This document shows positions 5,130-63,571 of a stretch of DNA of 64,000 nucleotides, one piece after another (position 1 is the first letter of the stretch; every line of letters begins with the position of its first letter). The position numbers were made by a program, and so were the translations under genes. This DNA is from Pagrus major. Lineage: Eukaryota > Chordata > Actinopteri > Spariformes > Sparidae. The stretch covers positions 27,690,040 to 27,754,039 of the forward strand of contig NC_133225.1 in the NCBI RefSeq assembly GCF_040436345.1, read 5' to 3'. The notes below the pieces were generated by a model, which ran no database searches, had not been told where the DNA came from, and saw only the letters and a list, made by a program, of their open reading frames with translations.

Positions 5130-5491
5130 TCAGCCAAAGATTCCTCCTCTCCTTGCTGTCGAAGAGAAAAAACAGGATTCTCATCATCCTCCATTACTAT
5201 TTCTCTTAGTCTGAATAGTCTGAAAAGTCTACCTGCCTAATTTCTTACCTTTTTCGGCGACAGTATACATCGCCTCCATGCCGGCTTTAATGTGGTCGGT
5301 GACGTGACAGTGGAGCAGCCAGGTACCAGCGTACTGAGGGCGCATCTTTACTGTCTGAAGAGGAGAGAAACCGCCATGTGATTTATTGGTCGCAAGTTGA
5401 AATTTTATTCATGTTTGACAGCACTGACAAGCCCACTGAGACACTGCTGTTCCTCTAAGTTAATGATGCAAAATCTCCTAATTATGCCAGA

Positions 5492-5589
<98 letters not shown>

Positions 5590-5613
5590 TCTGGCATAAT
5601 TAGGAGATTTTGC

Positions 5614-5699
<86 letters not shown>

Positions 5700-7513
5700 T
5701 TATTTGCTATTAAAGATGATAGAATTAGAAAAGGAACACTTGGGCTTAGTCACAATTATAGCATCTTATTTTAATAATGCTTGTCAGTTTTGTCATTTGC
5801 CATCTGTTTGTGTGTTAAAAAATGTTTACAGAAAATTCATTTGTATTAACTATTTTGATTGTTTGCAGATTTATTATGACCTTTTTTAAGAAAACATCTT
5901 GTTAACAATGAAGATTTGACATTCCATTCCTTGAAGTTACACTAAGTGGTGAGTATTTTTTTTTTAAATGCAACATGCAGCATCTTTAATGTTGCTAAAG
6001 ACAAATTAAGTCTGTTGAAGCGAGGACAGAATGTGTGGAGGTTTCACCTGGAAGGTGGCTGGAAACAGCTCATACGTATCAGTACGATGAGGACCTCCAC
6101 CCAGCTGAAGAGAAAGGAGAGTTGGTATTTGTGTGTACTAGAGTATGTTTGTATAATGTGTGACTGTCTCGCATGTTTGTTTGTATTTATATACCTTATA
6201 TTCCACACTGTGTCCATGCCAGTGCACGGTGTGTATGTCCACATCATTGCCCATTGCCATCAGGTACCAGTACACCTTATCACCCACCTCCATGTTCAAA
6301 CCATTCACATTAGCATACATCAAACCATTAATGCCTGAGAAGGACACAAACACACACGCATGTATTGGAATGACATTTCGAGGACACTTCTTTAGATGTG
6401 GTTCATTTTGTGTGTATCTTCATCTCACCATGCATCTTGTTGCTCTCTATGAAGGTTTCATCATCTTTTAAGTTTGTACGAGGGTTCCTGATGTGGGTCC
6501 TGATATTTTCATCCAGATACCTAGAATAAGGAAAACAGTGACAAGTTGCAAATATTGCCAAATAATAAATGTACAACAGCTTCTTTTCCTGGCACTGATG
6601 CAAAGAGATTTAAACACTACACACAGTAACGTACAGTAGTATTCTGAAAGTGATGTGTGCAGAATGTTTCAATCTCGAGGCCAAAAACAGTGCTCTCACT
6701 GCCCCAGACTTAATAAATGAACATTAAGAAGAACATAATGTTAAAAGGGGATTAAGGTATGATGTGGGACCCGGTGAATTCATAACCAGCTCTTCTTGTA
6801 CAAAACTTTACACTTGAAATATGGAAATCAATCATCTTCGTTCTCTGGGCATATTGAGATTTCATCGTCCCCAATGTCCAAACTGAATTGGGAAAGAAAG
6901 CTTTTACATTTTCTGCACATATTGCATGGAACCTTTTACAGACTAATCTTAAACTCCAGGTTGCCTACATGCAAATTTGTTGTTGTAACTCTCTTATGTT
7001 GCCATTGTTGTCCACGTCTGTCTTGTAACAGAGATCCTTGATCTCAGTGGGACTAACTTGGTTAAATAAGGCAAACTAAATACATTCAAAAAGTTTCACT
7101 TGAACAATTGTCAATGTCAACAGAGGGGTCAGTGGATTAGATTGTTAAGTACTGTGACTCTTTACTCACCAGCTCTCGTTCTCATCAAAGACCATGAAAA
7201 GCAGTGCAAACTCTTCGACTTCCTTTTTTACACCAAAAGTCCTGGAAGCAGTTAATACAATTCTGCATTTATACTATAATATATTTATTGTGTTACGCAG
7301 TACAAAAACACATACAAAATTATCTCCTGTACCTGACATCACACAAGCACACTGTATACTGCATACAGTTATTGAAGTCATAACTAGTTTTGTGTTAATG
7401 TACAGCTGTGAAACACTCACCTGCCCCAGCTACGGCGACAGATCACCAACGGACCAATCAGACCGCTGTACAGGTCCTGGTAGGCAGGGAGATAACATAA
7501 GTGTGTGAATGCT

Positions 7514-7564
<51 letters not shown>

Positions 7565-10500
7565 ATACCTTGCTAACATCCACAGTGGAGTAGTATGCTG
7601 ACACTGAGCACTCCTCTTGCTCTGTGGTTGGTCCTGTTTTCTTTGTAACATACCAGTAGTAGGTGTGAGTCTCACCTGGGAAAGACAATACAGGTTTTTT
7701 TTCAAGGTTTTGAATCCCCTAGTACATTAAATGGTAGTCCCGGGATTTTTAATATTATTAAAAATATTATATTATAATATACACATGCAAATTACATATT
7801 TTGGGGTCTGAATGAATGATAGGAATATACAGTTTAGAAATTGATCCAGCAGATTTCCTCAGTCTGCAGCTGTGAAACAGGCTGCAGTGGCTGCAACTGA
7901 CAGGCTTAGATTGTTTTTGTAAATGTCTGACAACATTATGAAAAGGATCCCTACAGATATCCTTAATGTGTAAGCAGAAACAGTCATTATTTCACTCTGT
8001 TTAAAGCCACCAGACTCCAGTGACAAAAATGGCAATTTTACCTCAAAGAAGACTTGTAAGAGTTGCTGGTCTACTGCTGCCTCAATCGGTTACTTACTTT
8101 TTTTATTGTGTGACTTTGGTGTTTTAACACCATAGTTAGGATCCAAAATAACTTTTTAAAACACCAAAGTCACACAATAACACAAAATATCCAAATGAGG
8201 CAACAGTAAACCAGCAACTCCCGTTTTTCAAAGTAAAATTATTGTTTTTGTTGAGAGTCTGGTGGCTTTGAAGAGATTGATATAACACTTTTGCACCTAT
8301 AAGTCATTAGGACCCCAAAAAAAATGTAAAAATGAGGCACAGGTTTAAAAATACCCAAATTACATTGTAAGAAAACTGAAGTTACACACAGTCCGGTAGA
8401 GTTGGGTGGAAGGACAGACAGTATTAAGACCAAATAAGCTTTTGATTTTCAGGCTTAAGTGCACTGACAGGCTTTAATTTTATAACAAAATAAAAATTTA
8501 ATAAATAGGAAATTAGAATGAAGAGTTTTGTAAACTTTCTCGAAAGTTTCTTGATTGTCTGCCTCCCTTCTAGCTAATATTCTGTCTATCTTTACCTGGT
8601 CCGGTGGGGTGAACATCAGGCGTCTCTGTCTTGACTCCATGAGCGTGGATAGAATAACTCCTGGATGCCATGTTTTTAAAAACCACCTTCACTTTGTCTC
8701 CCACATCAGCATGAATTATTGGACCTGAGCAGAGGGAGAGTCTAATTACCCAAAAAAATTAGGCTTAACAAAAGGTAGGTCAAGCATAGTATAATGTGTT
8801 CCTTTTACTTTACGATCGCAGTTTATACATTCTGCTGTGCTGAAAGCCTACCCATAATGCCGAGGTGTTCCATATCAGCTGTTCTTTCCACCTGCGTGGT
8901 GAACTTGTCGTTGGTGAACTGGCGGTAGACCACCTTCTTGTATCGGGAGCCTATAAACCCACCCGCCTTATCCAGGAAGACAGGAGCAGGACTGCAAAAA
9001 GAGAGTTTAAGTTTGTTTTGCCATGTTGCGTTGAGAACAACCAGCACATTCATGCGTTACATGTCCTGGCGGTTTCGTACTTCTCCATACTGCGAAACAT
9101 CTCCGTCTCCCAGGTGCGGTTTGGAGAGTAGTCCCAGTCTGTTTCCATGGCAGCGATGTAGTAGGTTTTTGAATGGAGCATAACCTCACCCTGACGCTGA
9201 AAGAGGCTGCACTTCTGTACCGTGTAGTTGGCTCTCATCCCTCCTCGATAATTGTTCACTGTCGGTGACACCACTTCAAACTGACCTGAAACACACATGC
9301 ACATTATAAACAACTACATAAATATACAATATACATGCCATACTTAATATCAACCCCATGTATCAGTCGAATACAAGTCGGTTTGCCTTTGTTTAGTGGT
9401 TTATTTTTATCCATTCTTCTGTCAGACTCTGCCTTGTAACTAATTTATGTCCCTTTGAGCTCCTACAGTACATCCAGTTTTATGGGTGTTCACAAAGGTG
9501 TGCCACAGGATTCTAATCTGGGACCACTTCTCTTTACAGTTCTTATAAATAAATTTGGTGAAGAAGTTTAAAATAGTACAATTCACCTGTATGCAGATGA
9601 TGCCATTTTATATATAACAGCACAATCTGTTGGCCAGGTGGCTCAAAACATTCTGATTGCCATCTGATTTTGGGTAATCAGAAAGTAGGGTGATAATCTC
9701 TCATGTTTTTTTAACTATAAATTAAGATAACACTGTACTAGATCTCTGGACTATTTGGTCCTTGAGGATCACCAAGTCAATACTAAATTTGGGTAGATGG
9801 CTCCTAAATACCATGCAAATGGAACAACCTGCAGAAACTTTTTAAACTAGACACGCTGATTGCTTTTAATCCATTTAAATTCCCTTTAATAGATATTGAG
9901 CCATGTGAATTTCTGTGTTTTACCCATGCTGTCTGGCTCCATAGTGACAGTGCGGGAGATGTGGGGGAAGACGCTGATGGAGTCCCGTCTGTTCTGGCGG
10001 TATATGAAGCGGTTTCCCTGGAAGTAAAGGCTGTTGATGTCCGATTCTGAACCCATTCCTGACAGGTGCCATGTTATTGCATCCCCCTTACACATGGTCA
10101 GGCCTGGGAGGTTCCTATACACATACCCATTGATGGCTAGAAGTGGGAGCCAGAGAAGTAAAACATGCAGTCATTATCTCAACATTTAAAGCAGATATTA
10201 AACTTTATTGTTTTTTTCTCTTCTACACACCGTGCATCTTGTTGCTTTCCATAAAGCCTTCATCCTCCTTGTTAACAGTGGTGGGAGCAGTGCAGAAGGT
10301 CTTAATGTTGTCATCCAGATACCAGCTCAGGTTCTCATCAAACACTGTGGCCATGAGGTGGAACTCTTTGTTATAGTTTTTCTACATGAGGAGAAAACAG
10401 ACAATTGAGGAGGCATTTATTTAAATAATCAAATCAGACCTAAAGAAATCAGATTCGATGTTCCAACACATGGCCTTAAGTTTAGTTCCTGACGTTCTTT

Positions 10501-13500
10501 TTTTCACCTGCACTCCTCTCTTCAGAGACCCAGCTCGACAGATGAGCAGCGGTCCAACCAGTCCAGAGCTGGTGTCTTTAACAGGGTCCACTCCAGAGTA
10601 GTACAAATAGGTCAGACAGTCAGCCTCCCCCTGTACTGGACCAGCACCCAATGGCACCATCCACTCATAGGTGTGCATCGTCCCAGGTCTGACCAGAGCA
10701 GCTGGGGGAGGGGTCACCACTCCTGAATACATACAGTTAAATAAAGAGAGAATTATTATATTAAGAAGATATTTGTTAATGGATGCCAACGTAGACTTGT
10801 AGTGTAATTCAGGTTTAACTCACTTGGTTGTCTCTTTAGCTCCCGCAGCTTCTTTTCTGTGTAGGACTCTGAAAGGTGGAGATATAATGAAGGTTGAGAA
10901 AGCTCTTCATGTTTAATCTAGTACCTTGACAACAGAATATGTTTATGTATTAACCTTCCAGTTCATTGTAATAGAGCGTCCCATCCTGTTCCACACTGTA
11001 CTGAACACCATGTGGTTGTATACTGTAAGCACGGCTGGCTTTGTTCTTGAACACCACATTGATGGTGTCCTTTTCTTCAGCTCGCAGCACAGGACCTGTG
11101 ACATGGATGCACACAAACACACACAGATGTCGGTTTGTTTAATTTGTGACAAAGGACCATACAGTCATATTTTGAGGCAGATACCTCATCATAACAAGAT
11201 CCTGCTGACATATCTCGAACATTTTTCATTTTCATGTACTGGTTTCTTAGTCTGGACTAACTGGCAAACTGCTGAAGAAAAGAAGTAAGTCTGTCCAAAA
11301 TATGAATAAAAACTATCAACATTAATGCCTTCAACAACAATAATACCAGAAGTCGAGAAGATGAGATGATTTCTTACCCAAAAAGTTGTAGAATTTAGTC
11401 AATATTTTAGGAGTGGATTGACTGAACAGGCAAGAATTTGATTGACATTACAGCTTCTTAAATGTGAGGATTTGCTGCTTTCCTTTGTTTTTATTTGTTG
11501 AAACCTGAATATCTTTGGGTTTGAGAGCCGTCTGAAATGGTCAAGGAGCTTGTGATGTGCACCTGTTCCTGTTTTTCGACATTTAATTGACGAGACAAAA
11601 AAATAATCTGCAGATTAACTAATGATAGTTGGAGTCCTAATTGAGCTGTGCAGATAGTTCTTACTTGGAAGGGGATCAAGACAAACTAACCTGCTAGCTA
11701 ACTATTATGGAATCTAACTAAGTACATTTAGTCAAGCACTGTACTTAAATACAAATTTAAGTTATTAGTACTTCACTTTAATCTTAATGCCATTTTCTCT
11801 GAGAATTATTGTACTTTTTACTTTACTGCAACAATTTGACAGCTCTAGTTACTAAATTAACAGACCGAACAGCATATAGAGCTGAAACAATTAGTCAACT
11901 GAAAGAAAATTATTTGAAACTATGCTGAAGACATTTAATGGATCCGGCTTCACAAAGATGAGGATTTGCTGCTTTTCCTTTATATTAGATAGTAACTGAC
12001 AGTATTTCTTACTGTTTTCCATAATGTAAACTATTACTAATATAAATAATCTAATAATATATATTGTAGTTATCCCATTATGAAGCACTCGCCATCTTTT
12101 TTTTTTTTTTTAGCTGACTTTCAAGGTCCCTCTGGAATGATTGCAGTGGATTCAGATCACCTGTTGCAGGCTATGGAGACTGGCTCCTAATTAATGAGCG
12201 AAAGCAGCTTGTGGCATTCCTCTCCAGCTTAAGTGAGGTGGAGAATGGCCCCCAGATCAGTCTCTTTCTCATTCTGATTCTGTCCTTGACACACTGCAGA
12301 CCTCATCCAAACAGATTATCAGCCAGAAACTCTGCTCTGTGTAGGCCCTGGTGAGATGTCTTTGCTGCCCTTGTTCTTTCTAGTTGAGGGAAATTGCATT
12401 CTGCAACCTGAGTGACCAACAAAAGTCACCATTTAACTAGCCTACTTTCAGCAGGGCCGAGGTTATTTGTGCAAGCCTGGCACCTGCAGGATTTTTTTTG
12501 ATATCCAAGCCCCCTATATACCTTCAGTTTTTTCATTAGGGACTTAAGAGGTGGTAAAGGAAGTATATTTCAGTTTCATTATCCCCTATCGAGGCACTAT
12601 TTCGTTATCATCCAAAGAGACATTCATTCAAAGCATTAGTGACGTTGTTATTCCCTGTAAATATATATTCTTTTAGTCTATACATTTTTTTCATTGTTTT
12701 GGGGCTGGTTTGTAGGCATTTTCCTGCCAGTGCTGCCAATATGAAAGTATAACAGTCGCAGTTGACATTTTTCTGCACTGAGTACTAAACCTTCAAGTAT
12801 ATTTTCCTTATTGTACTTGCATACATGCACTTTTACTCAAGAAGCATTCTTAATGCAGGACTTTCATGTGACAGAGTATTTTATAAGTGTAGTAGTACTT
12901 CTACTAAAGTAAAGGATCTGAATACTTCTTCCACCACTCTCTCTGACTCTGAAATAGCTACCAACCCCAGCCCATTCTAATTTACCCATAATTCCAAGGT
13001 GTTGCTCCTCTGGGGCACGCAGCATCTTTGTGGTGAACGTGTTGTCAGTGTATTCCACATAGCGAACCTTCTTATAACGGCTTCCAATACGGTTTCGACC
13101 TCTGGTTACAAACATGTCCGCTTCACTACACACACAGAAAAAAAACATTATTAATGGAAGAGAGAACGAGACATGGGACCATTTCTGTGAAAATGTGTCG
13201 TCTGTGTGTACAGTAACCAACCCATCAGTAGGCAGTGTAGGAGCATAGTCCCACACATCTTCTTCAGCAGCGATGAAGAATTGTCTGAGCTCACCGTGTG
13301 GTCGAGGTTTATGGACGTTGGGGAAACACTTTTTGATCTCAAATATAGCCTGCATTCCAGCTGGACAAAACCACAAAACACAAACGAAACTGAAGAAATA
13401 AAATCATCATCCACAAAACACCACAGCTTAATCTTTGTGAAATGATCACATTAAGAATTGGGGGTTAAGAGCTTACCCATTAAATGGTCATTGACGGTGC

Positions 13501-16500
13501 ACGTCAGCAGCCAGTGTCCGGGGTTGTCTGCCACCATTTCAGCTGTAAAGCTGGAGGCGGGGAAAAGACTGACCGTGTCTGTATGGTGGTTCTGTACAGT
13601 CAGGATCTGGCCATGGAAATGAACTGAATGCATGTCCACCTGTTGTAAAGGGATGGGTGATACCAAACTTTTGTAATTTGATTTGATACTTTATGTTACG
13701 ATTTTATAGATACTGATACAGATACCATTGTCTACTTGCCATTAATAAAACATTAATATGAGTAGAAAAATAGTCCATTATTTTATATAAATACTATGAA
13801 GAATTTGAAGCTAGGGATTTTTATTAGGGGGCTGCATGTCAGCAGAATAACTGTAACTGAGAGTGGGAGATATTTTCACATACTCAGTGAATTTAAGGTT
13901 TATTTTGACCAAACCAGAGGTGACTGTGGAAAGACAAACCAGGGTGGTTTTGAGTGAGTTTTACTTTGTTTCTGTCAAGTTTGAATGAAGTCCGTTTTAA
14001 CTAAAAATGTAAAACAGACAATAATGCAAAATTTCTAAGGATTAAAGAGCTAATGGTACGGTATATTTTGTCAGCCTAGACTTTTGTTCACTGCAGGGGA
14101 AGATGATGCACAATGGAAAAACTAGAAGATTTTTTGTACACATTACATTGAACATTACAGAAACAGTTAAAGAATCCCTCTAGTGTCAGACGTTCTGGTT
14201 AGTATAATAATAATAATAATACAGTAGTTACCTCATTGCCTAAGGCAAACATATGCCAGCTGATCTTGTTGCCTTGACACATGCTCAGTCCAGGCAGGTT
14301 ACCGTACAGGAAACCATTTATACCTGCAATCCACACACAGAGAATTGAAGGTATTTTATGGGTATGTGTATGGTTACGTGTATGTGTATATCAAAGCTCC
14401 CCCCCTCACCGTGCATTTTGTTGCTCTCAATGAAATCTTCGTTCTCCTTCAGGCCACTAGCAGGATTCGTGATGTACGTCCTAATGTTCTCATCCAGGTA
14501 CCAGCTGAAGTTCTCATCGTTTACCATGAACAGCAGAGCATACAGGTAGTCTCCTGACCTGTCTCCATGTACGTCCAGAGTTCCTACAGAGGAGAGGAGA
14601 CAACACTTCAGGATTATGTGAATAGATGTATGTCTGTAACAGGTAAACACATTTATAGGGGTATTTTCTCATTTAACTTCTTACTATTATTGATGAGCTT
14701 GTACTTGAACTGTTTTGGTTATTGCACATAAGAGATTTCAATTTTTTCTGTGAGCTTCTTTGAAGTGGACAGACTCAGTAAGGAAAAGGTGATGGTACGT
14801 AGTTGTACCTTATGAGTATGACAATAAAATCTTATCAAGTCAGTGTTCAGTCTTGACAACGGCCATGTTCACTTGGAGCCTGGTACAGTCAGCCCCTGTT
14901 AGCGGTTACTTCAGCAACAAGTAAAGCCATCTGTCCACCAGGAAACTCCATAAATCACAGAGAGTTCAGGCAGGGCGGCCAGAGGGCATTAGAGAGTAAA
15001 CCACAAAAAATGTTCTCCATAAAATGATTTGGTGTTACCCAAATTAATAACTAAAAAAAATGTACGTTTTGAGACATGAAATCTGAGCAACGTGCCACTT
15101 GCTCACTGCTTTAAGCTGAAGTTTGATTGATTGATGGATGACATGATATTATTGGATGAAATTGGTTGGTTCAAGACAACGTAAATACACATGACATTTG
15201 GTTTTACAACGAGACGACGTAACTGGATTTTGATAGAAAAATAGAAAGAAATGTGTTTTTTGTCGTTTTTTTTTTGCAGATATTGTCAAAAATGGATGTG
15301 ACCTTTTTCATTTTTGCTTAGTTTTAACGATATAAAAAATGTGTTTGGAGCTTCAATGTTATAAAAGTTACAGTCAGTTAATGTGAGATATGTGATCAGA
15401 GTTAAGTTAGAGACACTGGCTGGTTGTGAAAACATGGTGAACACAGTAGAAATAGTGCCCAACATATTGGTTCATTAAAATTGATTCGTTGATCAACTTT
15501 TAGTTGAATTTAAGTGAAATTTGTGAGATTAGCTGTGTAAGAAATATTCAGAGCATACAACCATACAGAACTACTCCATTATAAATAGAAAATCTTAAAG
15601 CAATGAAAGCTCCTAATGCAGCAGACTCTTTTACTTTAAATACTCTTATTTTATCACTTTTGGGTGGTTTGATATACAAAAATGCATCATATTCTATAAA
15701 AAGATCAAATGTTTTGAATTGTATATCTTCATCTGTACAGTAAAGAGTTAAAAGTACCAAATGTCACCTCTAAAATGTAGTGTAGGGGAGGTATATAGAA
15801 AATGGACATAAAAGTAAAGTAAAGGCAACTTAAAAATGTGCATGAGTAAATGTTTAGTTCCATCACACGATACTATAAAAAACAAGGTTCTGGTACCTCT
15901 CTTACAGATGATGAGGGGTCCTATCAGTCCTGAGTTGATGTCTTTGGGTGCGGAGACGTGGGAGTGGTAGAACCTGGTCAGGCAGTTGTTGTCCTCTGCT
16001 GTTGGGCTGTGGGTCTCTGCCAGGGTCCACTCATATGTCACCATTGCACCAGGAGCCACTGAGTCGTCTCGCTTCAGCGCTGGACCGGTTCCATCTGGGT
16101 ATAAGGCTCCTGAAGAGACACAGAGTCACACATCTATCAGTCTGTTAGGTCTGTCCATAAACTGATTCTTGCATTAGGTCAGTATTTCCTCACCCTCGTT
16201 GCCCTTGCTGTAGTTGAGTCCATGTGGGTGGATGCTGTAAGGTCTGGTCGCTGCGTTCTTCAGGTGGATGAACACAGTGTCCCCCTGCTCGGCCATCACC
16301 AGGGGTCCCAGGTAGCCCAGCCACTCTGGCTTTGTCACCTCTGTCCTGAAGGAGGAGTCGCTGTACTGCTTATACACAGCCTTCTTATAGGAGGGGCCGA
16401 TACGCTGGGGGCCTCTCTTTAAAAAGACTGAGGCTTCTCTGCAAAGAGAGGGATAGAGAATGTGTGTGTGTGTCTTTGAATGTATTTTAGATTATGCTTA

Positions 16501-18368
16501 AAATATTTCAGAAACGTCCTTGGCTTCAGTATATCTGGTTGCATGCTAATTAGACTTTTTTTTACAGCAGACAATTTGACTTGTGATAGTTGGAAAGGTG
16601 AAAACAAATTTTGTTAATGACGCCACAGATCCAGGAAGCCATGACAGTGTGCCAGCATACAAAATGGCAGGATCCTGGAACTAGCTCGCCAAAATGGAAT
16701 TAAGTCATTATTTAATATTAATCAGCAATTTCTCTCCCTGCTGTGACATGTGAAAATGTCTTCTGTGAATTATTCAAAAACATGTCTTCTTAGGTCAGGC
16801 ACTCATCACATGCACATCAATAAAACACCAAATAACAATACTCTGCACATGCAAAATGAAAAAAAGTAGCACCACACTTCATCTTTAATTCTACTTGGCC
16901 TTGACAACATTTCAACCACAAACAGATTATTTAGATGAAGTCATTAATGTTGTATGCAGTTCACAACTGTGATTAATACTAACTCTGGTTTATATTTGTT
17001 AAAAACGGAATATTGTGGTTTTTTTCTGGTCTGTTGTGTTTGTAACCAATATTTGGCAAGAGTTTGTGAGGCCTTCAGGTACCTGCAGAGTTCTGCATGT
17101 TAGTGCTGTAAATGTGTAAGTGAAGTAATGAGCTTGTATTGCTGTTATTGTGTGAAGACCTTGACACTCATCTAGGTTCATGTGTTGTATTGCATGTTTC
17201 AGATCAAACCTATTGATTTAATTTATCTGGTGCTGGTCAGTTGCAGGAACATAAAGTATGAAGATCAAAGTTCACCACCACACACCAAAATGTTACGCAT
17301 TTTATTTTTGGTGTTACAGACAGATCTAAAAGTAGAAATAATAATAAGTAGGTGTGATACACATATGTACCAAATTTTGTAAATGTTGGAAAGTATTCCC
17401 AGGCGGTGTGTTTTAAATCCGTACATTTGTACCACTTTGAAATTTTGTGCAAAGTTTCGGTTTTTGAGCATGTTAAGGCCCTCAAAAAAGTAATTCTACT
17501 TAGGCGTGAAAGAAACAAACAAACAAACAATAATTATTTGCATTTCAAGAGGACCCATGCACCATTGTGGTGTTTGGGCCCTAATAATAATTCCAACAAA
17601 CATAAGTTTTGGTTTGGGCTAATAGACGTGCATTAAATAGAATATACAGAAACACATCACTGTCCAATGAAAGCTATTTATTTCTAAATGAAATTGGTGA
17701 TATTGTTTTTTTCTCATATGAAAGGAAGGAAATGTTGAGAACATTCTTCTACTTCTGAATTGACATGAATCACTTCAAAACCCACTGGATTAGCTGAAAA
17801 AAGTGACATCGGAGCTAAGAAAATAAGACTATATTTCATGTGACGTTAAGTTGACGTTTTAGAAATACGTAGTTTCATCCGACAGCCATTTCTGTAGTCC
17901 TGATCACACTGTATGAGTGTTGACCAATTGAGGGCATTAAATGCAGAGCAGTGATTGGCCCGTGTGTCTGACTGTGGGGGTGGAGTGGCCACTTGAATTA
18001 CAAAGAAAGGTGGAGAAGTAGCTCAAATCTATGCACTGCCTTAAAAACAAATCTTCAAATGTTATTTTTGAAGATTTTAAGTGACGCCAATACAGGAGAG
18101 ATACGGTATCTTTTCATGGCGCCAGTACTGCTCCTTCCTGGATGAGCTCCAGGAGTTTAAGGTCTGACTCCAACACAATTAAGACAGTGCAGTGTGCTTG
18201 TACTTACTCATCCTCCTGCACTGTGCGGTTCTGAATGATGTTCATCCCAGTTGGGGCATAGTTCCAAGTCACCTCCTCTATCCTGAGGAAGTACTCTCTC
18301 CTCATCCCAGACACACACACTGCTGCACAGCACAGCAGCAACGCCACCCTGAACCCCAACAGATGCAT
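5130..18368 (-). CDS. cp: Ceruloplasmin, secreted multicopper ferroxidase
   Basis: Coding exons on the minus strand: 18208-18368, 16194-16438, 15897-16109, 14410-14583, 14232-14323, 13477-13639, 13222-13360, 12986-13125, 10955-11095, 10824-10868, 10508-10722, 10231-10381, 9924-10136, 9081-9285, 8852-8991, 8596-8724, 7569-7675, 7421-7476, 7170-7241, 6429-6520, 6195-6334, 6048-6104, 5249-5354, 5130-5155. They sum to 3222 nt (1073 residues plus TGA) and all junction phases agree. The start ATG opens a hydrophobic Leu/Ala/Cys-rich signal peptide. Six cupredoxin domains follow, as in vertebrate ceruloplasmin (about 1065 residues). The trinuclear copper cluster is intact: His124 and His126, His184 and His186, His999, His1002 and His1004, His1045 and His1047. 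The domain 6 type-1 site is intact (His999, Cys1046, His1051, Met1056). Family role: plasma Fe(II) to Fe(III) oxidation and copper carriage. The chain ends in GIFG with no membrane segment, which separates it from hephaestin. Odd points: the domain 4 copper ligands are lost and the domain 2 axial ligand is Met. Confidence 0.97.
5466..5615. repeat. 150-bp palindrome with AT-repeat centre
   Basis: A unique arm of about 32 bases starting ATGCAAAATCTCC runs into an (AT)n core of roughly 85 bp. The exact reverse complement of the arm follows. It lies in the cp intron between the exons at 5249-5354 and 6048-6104. Both strands therefore carry the same peptide frame across it. Confidence 0.95.
5616..5700. 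repeat. Second (AT)n tract beside the palindrome
   Basis: AT dinucleotides with two ATACAT interruptions, directly continuing from the right arm of the palindrome. Confidence 0.9.
7515..7563. repeat. (TG)n microsatellite filling a 92-bp cp intron
   Basis: On the transcribed strand this is a CA repeat that starts about six bases after the 5' splice site of the cp exon at 7569-7675. It makes up about half of the 92-bp intron. Confidence 0.95.
8003..8269. mobile_element. Fold-back (inverted-repeat) element in a cp intron
   Basis: The outer ends AAAGCCACCAGACTC and GAGTCTGGTGGCTTT are reverse complements. So are the inner stretches around GAGTTGCTGGT and TTGTGTGACTTTGGTGTTTTAA. The arms are about 120 bp each with some mismatches, around a centre of about 27 bp (near 8128-8154). 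It resembles dispersed hairpin MITEs of fish introns. No coding capacity. Confidence 0.85.
9440..9740 (+). mobile_element. Decayed non-LTR retrotransposon, reverse-transcriptase fragment
   Basis: From 9497 the plus strand reads [14 protein letters not shown], the reverse-transcriptase block usually written GVPQGSxLGPLLF. After a frameshift it reads [10 protein letters not shown], with the YADD catalytic box at 9590-9601. Both are hallmarks of LINE polymerases. Stops and frameshifts interrupt the rest, and only about 300 bp is recognisable. It lies in the cp intron between exons 9081-9285 and 9924-10136, antisense to cp. Confidence 0.85.
11450..11650. repeat. Dispersed fish repeat (GTGAGGATTTGCTGCTTT family)
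   Basis: Shares the core 'cttaaatgtgaggatttg' and the following T-rich, 'atctttgggtttgag' blocks with copies near 11880-12060, 22826-23040, 33190-33470, 44240-44480, 47620-47960, 55830-56000 and 57700-57970. Full copies are flanked by 'gctgcaactaa..attaatcga'-type ends, suggesting a non-autonomous DNA transposon. The class is inferred. Confidence 0.6.
11700..12945. mobile_element. hAT-like MITE, apparently split by nested repeats
   Basis: The left part (about 11700-11860) has the 'aagtacatttagtcaagcactgtacttaaatac' type of sequence. The right part (about 12780-12945) ends 'aaaggatctgaatacttcttccacca'. These are the two halves of a very common percomorph hAT-derived element. Between them lie another dispersed repeat (11880-12060) and the long repeat at 12167-12597, so younger insertions seem to have entered it. 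It occupies a cp intron. Confidence 0.6.
12167..12597 (+). repeat. Long dispersed repeat, copy 1
   Basis: Shares extended near-identity with 38220-38743 in the same orientation. Shared blocks include 'agactggctcctaattaatgag', 'cagacctcatccaaacagatt', 'agccagaaactctgctctg' and 'tagttgagggaaatt'. No reading frame. It lies in the cp intron between exons 10955-11095 and 12986-13125. Confidence 0.85.
17270..17610 (+). repeat. Dispersed fish repeat with 'tttgggccctaataata' tail
   Basis: The stretch ends 'gcaccattgtggtgtttgggccctaataataa', a tail seen in many teleost SINE-like elements. It lies in cp intron 1. Recognition is from memory, without a repeat search. Confidence 0.5.
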
Positions 18369-48391: not shown

Positions 48392-51300
48392 CTTGGGGTG
48401 TGTTCGGATGGCAGATGATCTTCCCAGCTCTGGTCTTCCTGGGTCTGAAGAACAATGACTGCTGCGGTTGCTGTGGCAACGAAAGCTGTGGGCGGAGATT
48501 TGCGGTGAGAAGATGTTTCACCATTTAACTTCTCACCATCATGAAGTAATTATTCACAGCTGTGGCTTCAAATGTCACAGGACAGAATGATTAAAACGGA
48601 TCCCAAAATAATTCTGCAGCAACAAAAATGTTAAAGTTTATAAGTCTCAGTTTATTTTAGGGTAGGCTCAGTAAAACACTGATAATTAGGAAGTTAGTTC
48701 ATTTTGAAAAAGTTTGCCAGTTGGGACTGCTAACATGCACAATACCAGGATGTTGAGCTATTATTATTTCCATTATGTATTCCCCACTCTGACATGTCAA
48801 AATGTCTTCAGTGAAGGAAGCCTATTAAACCTTTTAAACCAGTTTTTAGGTTAGAGTTAGAAGTGCAAATCATGTAGCACCCAAAAACCCAGAACCCAGA
48901 ACAGGCAGTCAGCCAGACAGAGACAGGAAAAGTAACAAACATTTTTCATTTTTGCGTCAACAACTTTAATTGGAGTGAAATAACTTTCTTGTTTGGGCAC
49001 GTCATTGTTTTGGATATTTGGCACCTAGAAAATAACAAATAGTTAATGATAATTTGAATAAAAAAAATAAGAGGTGAAATTCAGACTTAAAGAATCAAAT
49101 GCTGGTATAGATAGGATTATGAAATACTAATAAAAATCATCATTAAATAAATCTAGACAAAAAACGCAATAACTGTGTGAACATGGGAGTTGTTGTCTTT
49201 GTTGACAACCACCTTTGCTGATTAAAATCTATGTGAGTCAGGCAAGATGTTCATGTGTTAAAGTTTTATTCGTTAAACGTTAAGTCACGTTCGCCGACTT
49301 CCTTCCTCACTCTCTGATTCTCTCCTGGAGGTTACAGCAACAGGTGACCAGATGAAACGCATTGTTACCACAAATATAATTACAGGTTGAACAGTTTGAA
49401 CATTGTCGGAAACATTTGGGATCATGTAAGTACTCAACCCCGCAAAAATATAAAACAAAGGTCCAGTCGTTTTTAGACATTTTACTGCAGAAATGGTACA
49501 TGTTAAGTTAGGGTTTATTTCACTTTTGTTTTATGAATCAGTAGCTTGTTTACATTTTCTCCACATTTTTGTCTTTATGTTAAGTATACCAGGCTGTGCT
49601 CGCCACAAGATGACCTTAATTAGAAGCAGCAGTGAAAATTTGTCTTTATGTTAAGTATACCAGGCTGTGCTCGCCACAAGATGACCTTAATTAGAAGCAG
49701 CAGTGAAAATTTGTCTTAGTTGTTTCTCCTCTCTACCAGTGGATCTACTATGTCACCTGTTTACTGTGGAGTCATTTAAAACAAACACAGTGACACTATG
49801 CACACACACCCTCCATGATTTACACAGCAATAAATGACAAAACAACACACACTCAACCATACACTCTCTCTCACACACACACACATACACACAAACTGAT
49901 CCAACATCAATAACTGTAAGAAGAAATTCCCCTGCTGGGAGTTTCACATGACTTTATCACACAGAGTGCGTATTGTTCTGGTCCAGACACACATACTGAT
50001 CGATACTTCAGGAATGTGTAGGTGTGTGGTTGTGTGTGGGGTCCAGCAAAGCATCAGCAAACAAAAGTCTGACACACACACACACATACACACACACCAA
50101 GTGTTGGCTGTGCTCTGCTTGTGACCCTCAGAGAGAATAACTTCATTGTTGTCACAGAAGTTCAAAGTGAGATTGTTAAAGAGAAGACCGATTCCCAATA
50201 TAAGTACCTGTTCTTTCTCTGTCCCTCTGTAGATGCTGAGTTCCATACTCTTTGCAGGTGTGGGTGTTTTGGGGGCTGGTTACTCAGTTATTGTTTCTTC
50301 TGTGGCCATAAACCACGGACCTATGTGTGAGGTTAGGAACGGGACAGGGACGATGTGGGACACTCCCTTCTCAAACGGGTGAGACACACAGCAAGTATTA
50401 AAACACTTACTACTTCTTCCAAATAACCTGCACGATCAGCAATGCAAAGATGTATGGTGCATGCAGTTTATTTCAGAGGAAAATGTAAAGCACATTTTCA
50501 TTTCACTTGTCATGAATTGAAACTTCAGTGATTATCTACTCACCCCTTAACCTGAAGCTCCAGAAATGTTTTGCTGACTTTGAAACTTCACCCGACTTTC
50601 CATCGACATGAGAGTGATCAGATAATGACCACATTTCTATTTCTGGGTGAACTGTTCCTTTAAAGGTACAGTTGACGTTTTGAGGAGATTCACTTGTTTG
50701 ATTTCTTGCTGATAGTTGAATATGAAGACTGACACCACGATCAGGTGTGTCATTCAGGTGGAAGTCATTTAGCTTAGCTTAGCTTTAATTAAGTCACCTT
50801 AGCTTAGCATAGGGACGGGGGGTACAGCCATCTTGGCTCTGTCCAAAGTTAAGCAGACTAATATTTTGTGATATTCCAGGAACTCACTGTTCCCCGACAT
50901 CTCCCAATTTTTGTGAACCAACTCATTTTAAAATGAACATTTTAACACCCGTAATAAGAATTTAATTAGCTAGCAAGCCCAATTTATTGATGCTACCTTT
51001 TACTACAGAACTCTTTTAACATAAAAAAGCTAGTACGTTAACACCACATTATTAAAGTAGCTGTAAACCACTGCTCACTCACTAATTAACCGGCTCTTCA
51101 CCAGTTTAAAGTGTCCACAGATAAAACATACCTCTTTTTCACCCTCTCTTTCCAGTGACTACCTGTCCAACAAAAGTTCCTGGGATGAATGTATAAAGCC
51201 AGATAACATGGTGTCCTGGCATCTCTCCCTGTTCTCTGTGCTGCTGATCATGGGTTTAATCCAGATGGCACTGTGTGCTGTGCAGGTGGTGAACGGCCTG

Positions 51301-52470
51301 CTGGGAGCCCTGTGTGGGGACTGCTGCGGCTGCTGTGGAGGGGTCAGTATCTATACTGCGATGACATGAGTTCACTTTCCTCCATTTATTAAGATAATTT
51401 GATAAATTTAAAGGGAAATCTAAATTTACATTAACATTTCTGAAATGATATTGTAAATCTGGGCAATATATCAATATTATATTGATATTGTGATATGAGA
51501 CAGTATATTATGTTAGAATTTATATCATGATATGTCATAAATGTTGTTTTTTTCCTGGTTTTAAAGGCTGCATTCCAGTAAATTAATTTAATTTTCAGAA
51601 CTTACCAGACTGTTCTATATATACTTGTTCAAATACTTGCCTTTACCCACTTAGTCATAATACACACATTACTGATAATTATTTATCACACTTTTTGAAC
51701 CTCCAGCCATTCCTTTATTATTGTCTCATTATGGATATCAAGGTATTTGGTAAAAAAAAATAAAAAAATTGTGACATTTGATTTGGTCATCTGGTCCTGG
51801 CATTTATGAAGTGCTTTGAGAAAATTTCAAAATACTGAAATACATAGAGTATCATAATATAATCTAAAATGTTTGTTATATAGTTTTTAAGGCCATATCA
51901 CTAAGCCCTTCATTGTTATTGTTATTGTCATACATACTTATCAATTATTACGTAAAAAGAAGAAAGGTAAGAGTAAAGATACGACTGTGAGATAAAAGAT
52001 GTTTTGTTGTTTTATGACTCTTTTTCATCTGGCTTCTTTGCTGAGATAGAGACTAACCTCGGTGGTACTTATACCTGCTTTAATAAAGGAAAAGAAGAAG
52101 AAGACTATGATTAAACTTAAATGAAATATAATGAAATATTAATAACAAAGATTAAACACCATATGTGGGCTTGTTGATGTGCAACGATCTGACAGGAAGT
52201 TTAAAAAATGGCATGCTTACCAGGTCAAACACTTATCCACATATTTTCCATTATTTAATATTTTAGCTGTGTATAGCCCATTTAATTCCAGATTTGATAC
52301 TCGGTTACAAAAAAAATAGGTCAGACACTAACTCGTTAACTGGGATTCAGTAAATTATGTAACAGCTTGGGGCTTTAGGAGTGTTGGTGTAAACAGGGAT
52401 GGATTCCATTTTTCAAGTAAACCACATGAAATTGTTCATAATCTTTGTCTTACAGAGCGATGGAAACTGA
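47176..52470 (+). CDS. tm4sf4: Transmembrane 4 L6 family member 4
   Basis: Five plus-strand exons (47176-47346, 48415-48504, 50233-50378, 51156-51342, 52456-52470; phases 0, 0, 2, 0) encode 202 residues, the length I recall for human TM4SF4. Diagnostic runs shared with TM4SF4 are NILLFFPGGK after helix 1, WYFGGILGSGVL, IFPALVFLGLKNNDCCGCCGN, GAGYS.I.S, and QVVNGLLGALCGDC near the C-terminus. Four hydrophobic helices are at about residues 9-30, 46-70, 91-113 and 156-184. The large extracellular loop has N-glycosylation sequons at Asn123 and Asn141. The family member is a liver and gut epithelial membrane protein linked to growth control. The last exon encodes only S-D-G-N and the stop. Intron 1 ends in a UG repeat next to exon 2. 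Confidence 0.96.
47620..47960. repeat. Dispersed fish repeat copy in tm4sf4 intron 1
   Basis: Begins 'agggctgcaactaatcattattttgatta' and continues with 'atcgattaatttt' and 'aatcctcacattttagaacctgga', matching the family listed at 11450 in opposite orientation. Confidence 0.65.
48308..48389 (+). repeat. (TG)n microsatellite upstream of tm4sf4 exon 2
   Basis: About 40 TG units ending 25 bases before the 3' splice site of exon 2 (48415). Confidence 0.96.
49568..49709. repeat. Perfect 71-bp tandem duplication
   Basis: Two adjacent copies of a 71-bp unit beginning TTTGTCTTTATGTTAAG appear identical. The period is 71 (49568 and 49639). It lies in tm4sf4 intron 2. Confidence 0.93.
50545..50666 (+). 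repeat. Right-end fragment of the 1724-2466 MITE family
   Basis: Shares 'gaagctccagaaa', 'cttcacccgactttccat' and the terminal 'tgggt.gaac....tttaa' with 2354-2466. Confidence 0.6.
50670..50890. repeat. Dispersed fish repeat with 'agcttagctta' block
   Basis: Contains the 'ttagcttagcttagcttta' and 'catcttggctctgtccaaagttaa' series common in teleost introns. It lies in tm4sf4 intron 3. Confidence 0.5.
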
Positions 52471-56042: not shown

Positions 56043-56987
56043 ATGCTCTCTGTTATATTTAAAAGAAGCACCTTTGCAGCCCAGAAGGTAACAACCATTG
56101 TGATTTGCATGCTTGAAAAGCTCTTTGACTCATTTTTTTGTATGATATGAATAAAATATACTGAATCTTTTTAAAGCTGAAATGTATTTTCATTTTTAAT
56201 ATGAATGTCTTTTTAGGTGTGGCTCTGGGCAGGTCCTCCACAAAGATGCTGGACATCAGCTCTGATCGGAGCTTCTTATGGTGGATCCATCTCACTGCAG
56301 ACCTGCTGTGCCTCAACAGCAAGGCTGCCGTTTTCAGAAAGGGACAATGGACGAGTAAAACCTTCACCAGTACTCCGTTTCAGGAGGACTGCAACACATG
56401 CAGCTCCATTCTTAGTGAGGAACCAACATTTCCACTCCTCTGCTGTGAAGCTGAAGAAGCGACCACAGCTTGAACCTCCTCCCAGAGAGCTGGATCTGCT
56501 GCGCTATGACATGAAGGACTTATGGAAAAGTCCCAAACCTGCCCTGTACCTGGGGTTTGCGGGGCTGATCCCCTTTGTCACCCCGCCTCTGTTCATGGCT
56601 GTGTCTGAGATCTACTCTCCAGAGTTGGCCTATGCTCAGTTAGCTTACAGCGCCTCCATTCTTTCCTTCCTGGGTGGAGCTCGCTGGGGATTTGCTCTTC
56701 CTGAGAGCAGCCCAGCCAAACCTGACTGGATAAATCTGGCCAACAGTGTGGTCCCTTCCCTGTTGGCCTGGGTGACTATGCTGATGAGCGACAGCATTGC
56801 TCCTGCAGCCACCATGATTATCATGGGACTTGGGATCTCACTGCATTACGATCTGTCTCTGCTGCCCACTTACCCCAGCTGGTTCAAAGCCCTGCGCACC
56901 GTCCTGACTGTTGTGGCGCTTTTTTCTCTTCTTGGTACTCTGATAATCAATGAAATGTACCCAGAAAAGAAGATATTCTCAGATTAA
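56043..56987 (+). CDS. tmem69: Transmembrane protein 69 (DUF3429 family)
   Basis: Two coding exons: 56043-56087 (15 codons, ATG directly after an acceptor CAG) and 56217-56987. They join in phase 0 to give 271 residues. The first 100 or so residues are rich in Ser, Arg and Thr with few acidic residues, like a mitochondrial presequence. The DUF3429 part starts with KPALYLGFAGLIPF at about residue 122 and has about five hydrophobic helices. Family landmarks are PLFMAVSEI, SFLGGARWGF and PSLLAW. It ends near KKIFSD. The molecular function of TMEM69 is unknown; an inner-membrane location is my inference from the N-terminus. The start codon sits two bases after the splice acceptor, so the upstream exon should be non-coding. 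Confidence 0.93.

Positions 56988-59483: not shown

Positions 59484-63571
<4,088 letters not shown>

Follow-up and report, generated by a model that had tools for sequence, protein, structure and literature searches.

A fish ceruloplasmin lacking the Cys/His copper ligands of domain 4 and carrying a complete predicted type-1 copper and iron site in domain 2

The DNA analysed here, a stretch of 64,000 nucleotides from Pagrus major that we call the window, contains a ceruloplasmin gene whose protein has lost all Cys/His copper ligands of domain 4 (D4) and carries in domain 2 (D2) the full set of residues predicted for a classical type-1 copper and for an Fe(II) site. The best reading of this pattern is a reciprocal loss, in which mammals would have retired D2 and fish D4, each keeping two working type-1 sites; the gene would then encode an intact fish ceruloplasmin in which D4 is now merely a structural cupredoxin domain. 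For this explanation as a whole, the basis of which is a single fish sequence, we estimate a probability of about 0.68. The bare loss in D4 is not a new finding, because Vasin, Klotchenko and Puchkova (2013, PMC3600357) report in their text fish ceruloplasmins without the mononuclear site of this domain; the complete D2 is the overlooked half. Among the matches listed in a search of open-licence PubMed Central texts, no statement of a D2 Met or of a D2 iron site in fish ceruloplasmin was found; figures lie outside such a search, and Figure 4 of PMC3600357, which aligns the copper sites, may show the D2 Met.

The gene lies on the minus strand, as do all its features given below, and its 23 coding exons (5249..18368, read from 18368 to 5249), joined from the raw sequence, give 1065 codons free of stops. 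Exons 2-23 are preceded by AG and all 23 are trailed by GT, at splice sites that we picked for continuity of the frame, and the model omits a further short C-terminal exon downstream of 5249, the placement of which is not fixed. A phmmer search with the translation matched human ceruloplasmin (4enz_A) at 1230.8 bits over query residues 7-1064, which indicates six-domain, full-length similarity, and rat ceruloplasmin (5n0k_A) at 1207.2 bits; the Pfam domains Cu-oxidase_2 and Cu-oxidase_3 were found in the protein. The text of PMC5610722 describes a ceruloplasmin primer for Eleginops maclovinus designed on a cDNA-derived sequence, and the forward primer agrees with our spliced model at 23 of 24 bases while spanning the junction of exons 22 and 23, which supports both the identity of the gene and that junction. 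The reverse primer agrees at 20 of 22 bases.

Domain 4 has lost the type-1 ligands His, Cys and His. In the phmmer alignment to 1kcw_A, N661 (AAC, 10033..10035), S704 (TCA, 9266..9268) and N709 (AAT, 9251..9253) stand opposite human H637, C680 and H685, and only the axial Met is retained, as M714 (ATG, 9236..9238) opposite human M690. The earlier note had named precisely these three losses and this one remaining ligand, and our rebuilt model returns its residue numbers and codons exactly. Exon 13 (9924..10136) encodes the first half of the copper region with N661 and E657, and exon 14 (9081..9285) encodes the 13-residue loop with S704, N708, N709 and M714. Where a type-1 copper takes two His and one Cys, D4 thus offers Asn, Ser and Asn. 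The iron site of this domain is likewise incomplete: in place of three acids and one His it reads E621, H626, N708 and D995. Half of it, E621 and H626 (10232..10249; human E597 and H602), is retained, N708 (9254..9256) stands opposite human D684, a ligand by its role in the literature, and D995 (6243..6245) stands opposite human E971, the domain 6 (D6) partner of the D4 site. We dropped the idea that D995 is proof of a D4 iron site under relaxed selection, as human hephaestin likewise has Asp there (D996). With D4 gone, the fish protein departs from the mammalian pattern of three type-1 sites in D2, D4 and D6, and since a fish ceruloplasmin without the D4 site is already in print in the text of PMC3600357, this pattern does not define ceruloplasmin as a whole.

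Among the Cys/His copper ligands, the change is confined to this one domain. Three of three Cys/His copper ligands differ in D4 against none of the 14 elsewhere (Fisher p = 0.0015, in a test chosen post hoc), the latter being the eight His of the trinuclear cluster, three ligands in D2 and three in D6. The D1 cluster His and the D2 ligands were compared with human ceruloplasmin, and the D6 ligands including the cluster His with rat ceruloplasmin, since the human alignment covered D6 only in part. Within domain borders that we set ourselves, D4 is identical to human at 75 of 142 aligned residues (52.8%), and D1, D2, D3 and D5 at 96/186, 75/149, 95/206 and 109/196 (46-56%), with 52/76 over the aligned part of D6 only. 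Given this similarity to the other domains, we reject decay of D4 as a fold. Over the two copper loops, agreement with human is 11 of 26 residues for D4 and 15 of 26 for D2. We also reject chance or sequence error as the cause of the D4 changes, because three distinct codons, spread over exons 13 and 14, have changed in a domain that is otherwise conserved, and the loss has been printed for fish ceruloplasmin. By its residues, D4 would hold no metal.

Three residues past the axial Met714 lies an N-glycosylation sequon, N717-Y-T (9221-9229, minus strand), in a column that is Lys in human and rat. Intron 13 contains on the plus strand a 43-residue frame (9440-9571) with a motif that resembles a piece of a LINE reverse transcriptase; it has no Pfam match at E 0.01.

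Domain 2 shows the opposite state. Its motif V-D-M-H299-S-V-H-F-H (13613..13639) is followed by C342, D346 and H347 (13484..13501) and by the axial M352 (13353..13355), giving in H299, C342, H347 and M352 the two His, one Cys and axial Met of a predicted type-1 copper site. The three acids and one His of a predicted Fe(II) site are present as E259 and H264 (14411..14428), D346 and, contributed by D4 as the predicted fourth ligand, E657 (10045..10047; human E633, with the role taken from the literature). Fish M352, H264 and D346 stand opposite human L329, Y241 and N323, and rat ceruloplasmin is identical to human in these three columns. That E657 is kept for the sake of the D2 iron site was considered and found not to be diagnostic, because human ceruloplasmin has Glu there too.

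The human D2 copper is described as having an axial Leu and remaining reduced, with no iron site expected at E236, Y241, N323 and E633, so two of the three type-1 coppers are thought to be functional in the human enzyme. This idleness is not beyond doubt. The text of PMC6534290 cites a mutation of the human D2 site that keeps copper from being incorporated, and regards the site as functionally critical; the text of PMC3738974 calls its involvement in ferroxidase activity unconfirmed. The latter, a review of 2013, gives an aspartate as one of the human D2 counterparts, against which our alignment gives Asn323, in agreement with a review of 2025. D2 of human hephaestin has Met in the apical position, together with an iron site predicted to be of low affinity (E264, H269, S351, E652), and D2 of HEPHL1 is described in PMC6534290 as a typical type-1 site with Met357. 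As the D2 Met is common to the fish protein and both human paralogues, the Leu of mammalian (human and rat) ceruloplasmin is most simply read as derived, and on this comparison it looks so.

Domain 6 and the trinuclear cluster are complete. The cluster between D1 and D6 has all eight His, namely H124 and H126 (16222..16230), H184 and H186 (15958..15966), H1002 and H1004, which share the segment 6216..6239 with the type-1 ligand H999, and H1045 and H1047, which flank C1046. The type-1 site of D6 with its Cys-His link to the cluster consists of H999, C1046, H1051 and M1056; the segment 5277..5312 encodes H1045, C1046, H1047, D1050, H1051 and M1056 and thus the iron ligand D1050 as well, these D6 assignments being made on the rat alignment. 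E959 and H964 of the D6 iron site are encoded at 6430..6447, and its partner from D2, E295 (human E272, with the role taken from the literature), at 14232..14234.

How an electron might travel in such a protein can be proposed from the human enzyme, in which, as the text of PMC6614124 has it, about 18 A separates the type-1 coppers, and neighbours are joined through a contact between Glu and His that is direct in crystals and bridged mainly by water when simulated. The human pairs given there are E272...H1026 (D2-D6), E971...H685 (D6-D4) and, from a table legend only, H324...E633 (D2-D4). The fish sequence preserves the D2-D6 pair (E295 and H1051), in which E295 is four positions removed from H299 of the copper site, but not the D6-D4 pair (D995 and N709); an electron from D2 could therefore reach D6 bypassing D4. 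We propose that Fe(II) would dock at the D6 site formed by E959, H964, D1050 and E295, and that the second entry would be the D2 site formed by E259, H264, D346 and E657, each iron site feeding its own type-1 copper (H999/C1046/H1051/M1056 in D6, H299/C342/H347/M352 in D2). The electron of the D2 copper would go directly to the D6 copper along H299-M298-D297-V296-E295...H1051, and the onward step to the trinuclear cluster would run through C1046 and its flanking His (H1045-C1046-H1047). The proposal that the D2 copper cycles in fish gains some support by analogy with a fungal laccase in which, according to the abstract of PMC4220974, the change from axial Leu to Met lowers the type-1 potential by 140 mV. 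Human ceruloplasmin would be the reverse, with D2 idle (Leu329, Tyr241, Asn323) and D4 as the second entry.

The earlier note had concluded that D4 cannot hold a type-1 copper and that the protein should have one site fewer than the mammalian three. The first part stands, since D4 is without the Cys and both His and PMC3600357 reports the absence of this site in fish ceruloplasmin, but the comparison starts from the wrong baseline, human D2 being thought idle while fish D2 is complete. Given the Met and the full predicted iron set of fish D2, total copper would be one lower, but neither the number of redox-competent type-1 sites nor the absorbance at 610 nm need fall. The reciprocal loss predicts five integral coppers against six, and two oxidisable type-1 coppers as in human ceruloplasmin, hence about equal 610-nm absorbance per protein.

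Among known systems, the nearest to the fish protein are the ceruloplasmins of Tetraodon nigroviridis and Chionodraco rastrospinosus, which are reported in the text of PMC3600357 to have six domains, no mononuclear site in D4 and the other copper sites as in ceruloplasmin. No difference from them is established, as the text consulted names no fish residues and is silent on the D2 axial residue and the D2 iron site. Human and rat ceruloplasmin (4enz, 2j5w and 1kcw; 5n0k and 5n4l) share with the fish protein the full-length similarity, the trinuclear cluster and the type-1 and iron sites of D6, but they keep D4 and have Leu, Tyr and Asn in D2, in contrast to the fish, where D4 is lost and the D2 ligand set is complete. 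A classical D2 type-1 site with Met is what human hephaestin and HEPHL1 (zyklopen) have in common with the fish, and both have a C-terminal membrane anchor, which we count as a probable difference. Hephaestin further shares the Glu and His of the D2 iron site and the Asp opposite human ceruloplasmin E971; unlike the fish it keeps the D4 type-1 site, and the Asp of the fish D2 iron site is replaced by Ser in hephaestin. Coagulation factor VIII, as described in the text of PMC3600357, also has mononuclear sites in D2 and D6 and none in D4, but it is a clotting factor with no ferroxidase activity.

The simplest rival takes the earlier reading to its end: D4 is dead, D2 does not cycle, and the fish enzyme runs on D6 alone. 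The lost D4 ligands fit it, and so does the complete D6, which has the residues proved critical by mutation in hephaestin, where high-affinity oxidation appeared not to need the D2 and D4 iron sites, a result that also counts against our preferred explanation. The fish D2, however, carries Met, His and Asp in the columns of human Leu, Tyr and Asn, as expected of a site that is kept and not idle, and we regard operation on D6 alone as unlikely. Another difficulty for the reciprocal loss is that the D4 iron site retains both E621 and H626, which a purely structural D4 leaves unexplained; D995, which hephaestin has as Asp too, may be old rather than a sign of decay. The two retained residues, despite the missing copper ligands, could be taken to mean that D4 binds another metal or a ferric ion through E621, H626, M714 and nearby Asn, for instance to hold iron once it is oxidised. 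The copper loop offers neither Cys nor His to such a site, and the remaining Cys inside D4 or at its edge (C606, C642 and C723) all lie outside the loop, so that this alternative seems quite improbable to us.

Two further rivals concern the gene itself. The hephaestin-like D2, with Met and His as in hephaestin and Met as in HEPHL1, raises the thought that the gene is hephaestin or a hephaestin-like paralogue rather than ceruloplasmin. Against it, the text of PMC3600357 reports the loss in D4 for fish ceruloplasmin, whereas hephaestin retains the D4 site; the Eleginops ceruloplasmin primers fit the model closely; and in the frames read over some 200 nt beyond exon 23, no membrane-like stretch comes ahead of a stop, although the last exon is outside the model. 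The PDB search does not bear on the choice, since hephaestin is not named among the best 60 of 91 phmmer matches and the two families are not comparable there. We consider a paralogue highly improbable. A wrong gene model, an alternative exon, a sequencing error or a pseudogene would find some room in the short final exon that is not fixed, in splice sites of our own choosing and in a model joined from genomic sequence. The 23 exons nevertheless have GT-AG borders and an open frame, the cDNA-based Eleginops primer fits across a splice junction, and the same D4 loss has been printed for fish ceruloplasmin in the text of PMC3600357. Moreover, a six-frame scan of 8852-10955 on either strand gave no unsplit alternative loop of the form C-x4-H-x4-[M/L], a search that a loop split by an intron would escape; the whole window has 34 matches to this pattern, and 20 random sequences preserving its dinucleotide steps have 26.6 on average. 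We hardly reckon with such an artefact.

Several other features of the window deserve mention. A 45-nt exon in domain 3 (10824-10868, minus strand) is in phase on both sides, so skipping it would preserve the frame, and most of it faces a gap in the alignment to human. A perfect palindrome of 150 bp (5466-5615), with two 75-nt arms that are 100% complementary and have no spacer, lies in the intron between exons 22 and 23; it consists of a TA run flanked at each end by some 30-35 nt of non-TA sequence, and another TA run adjoins it at about 5620-5703. TM4SF genes presumably adjoin ceruloplasmin on the human map. Pfam matches elsewhere in the window comprise a piece of an L6 membrane (TM4SF) protein (51067-51369, plus strand), a gamma-glutamyltranspeptidase-like gene in two pieces on the minus strand (PF01019; 35664-35897 and 43468-43947, E 4.4e-11 and 2.2e-16), a DUF3429 protein (56217-56987, plus strand) and a mitochondrial carrier in two pieces on the minus strand (60222-60503 and 62025-62273).

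A change in D4 may also matter for assays. According to the text of PMC3700992, p-phenylenediamine binds D4 of human ceruloplasmin, with H667, M668 and W669 among the residues of its site; the fish residues at these columns are T, M and E, those of rat L, M and T. The notion that fish have lost the p-phenylenediamine site is weak, because rat ceruloplasmin likewise lacks H667 and W669 and the change is therefore not specific to fish. Colour assays of ceruloplasmin activity in fish may nevertheless report on a different site. Two human mutations near the type-1 coppers of D4 and D6, G631R and Q692K, yield a copper-free protein, and it would be worthwhile to set them beside a fish enzyme whose D4 is entirely devoid of Cys/His copper ligands. 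The 610-nm absorbance would separate the earlier reading from the reciprocal loss, as the two predict different outcomes.

For the history of the family, we would lay even odds on an ancestor with three working entries, each an iron site with its type-1 copper, of which mammalian ceruloplasmin closed D2 and fish ceruloplasmin closed D4. The second entry of the fish enzyme would then be displaced by one third of a turn about the molecular axis and use a different inter-domain Glu-His contact to D6, with the blue colour kept and five coppers in place of six. Human ceruloplasmin poses the puzzle of why it should carry a D2 copper that remains reduced. A fish enzyme with a classical D2 and no D4 copper would be the natural counter-experiment, bearing on whether the entry sites are interchangeable and by which route their electrons reach D6.
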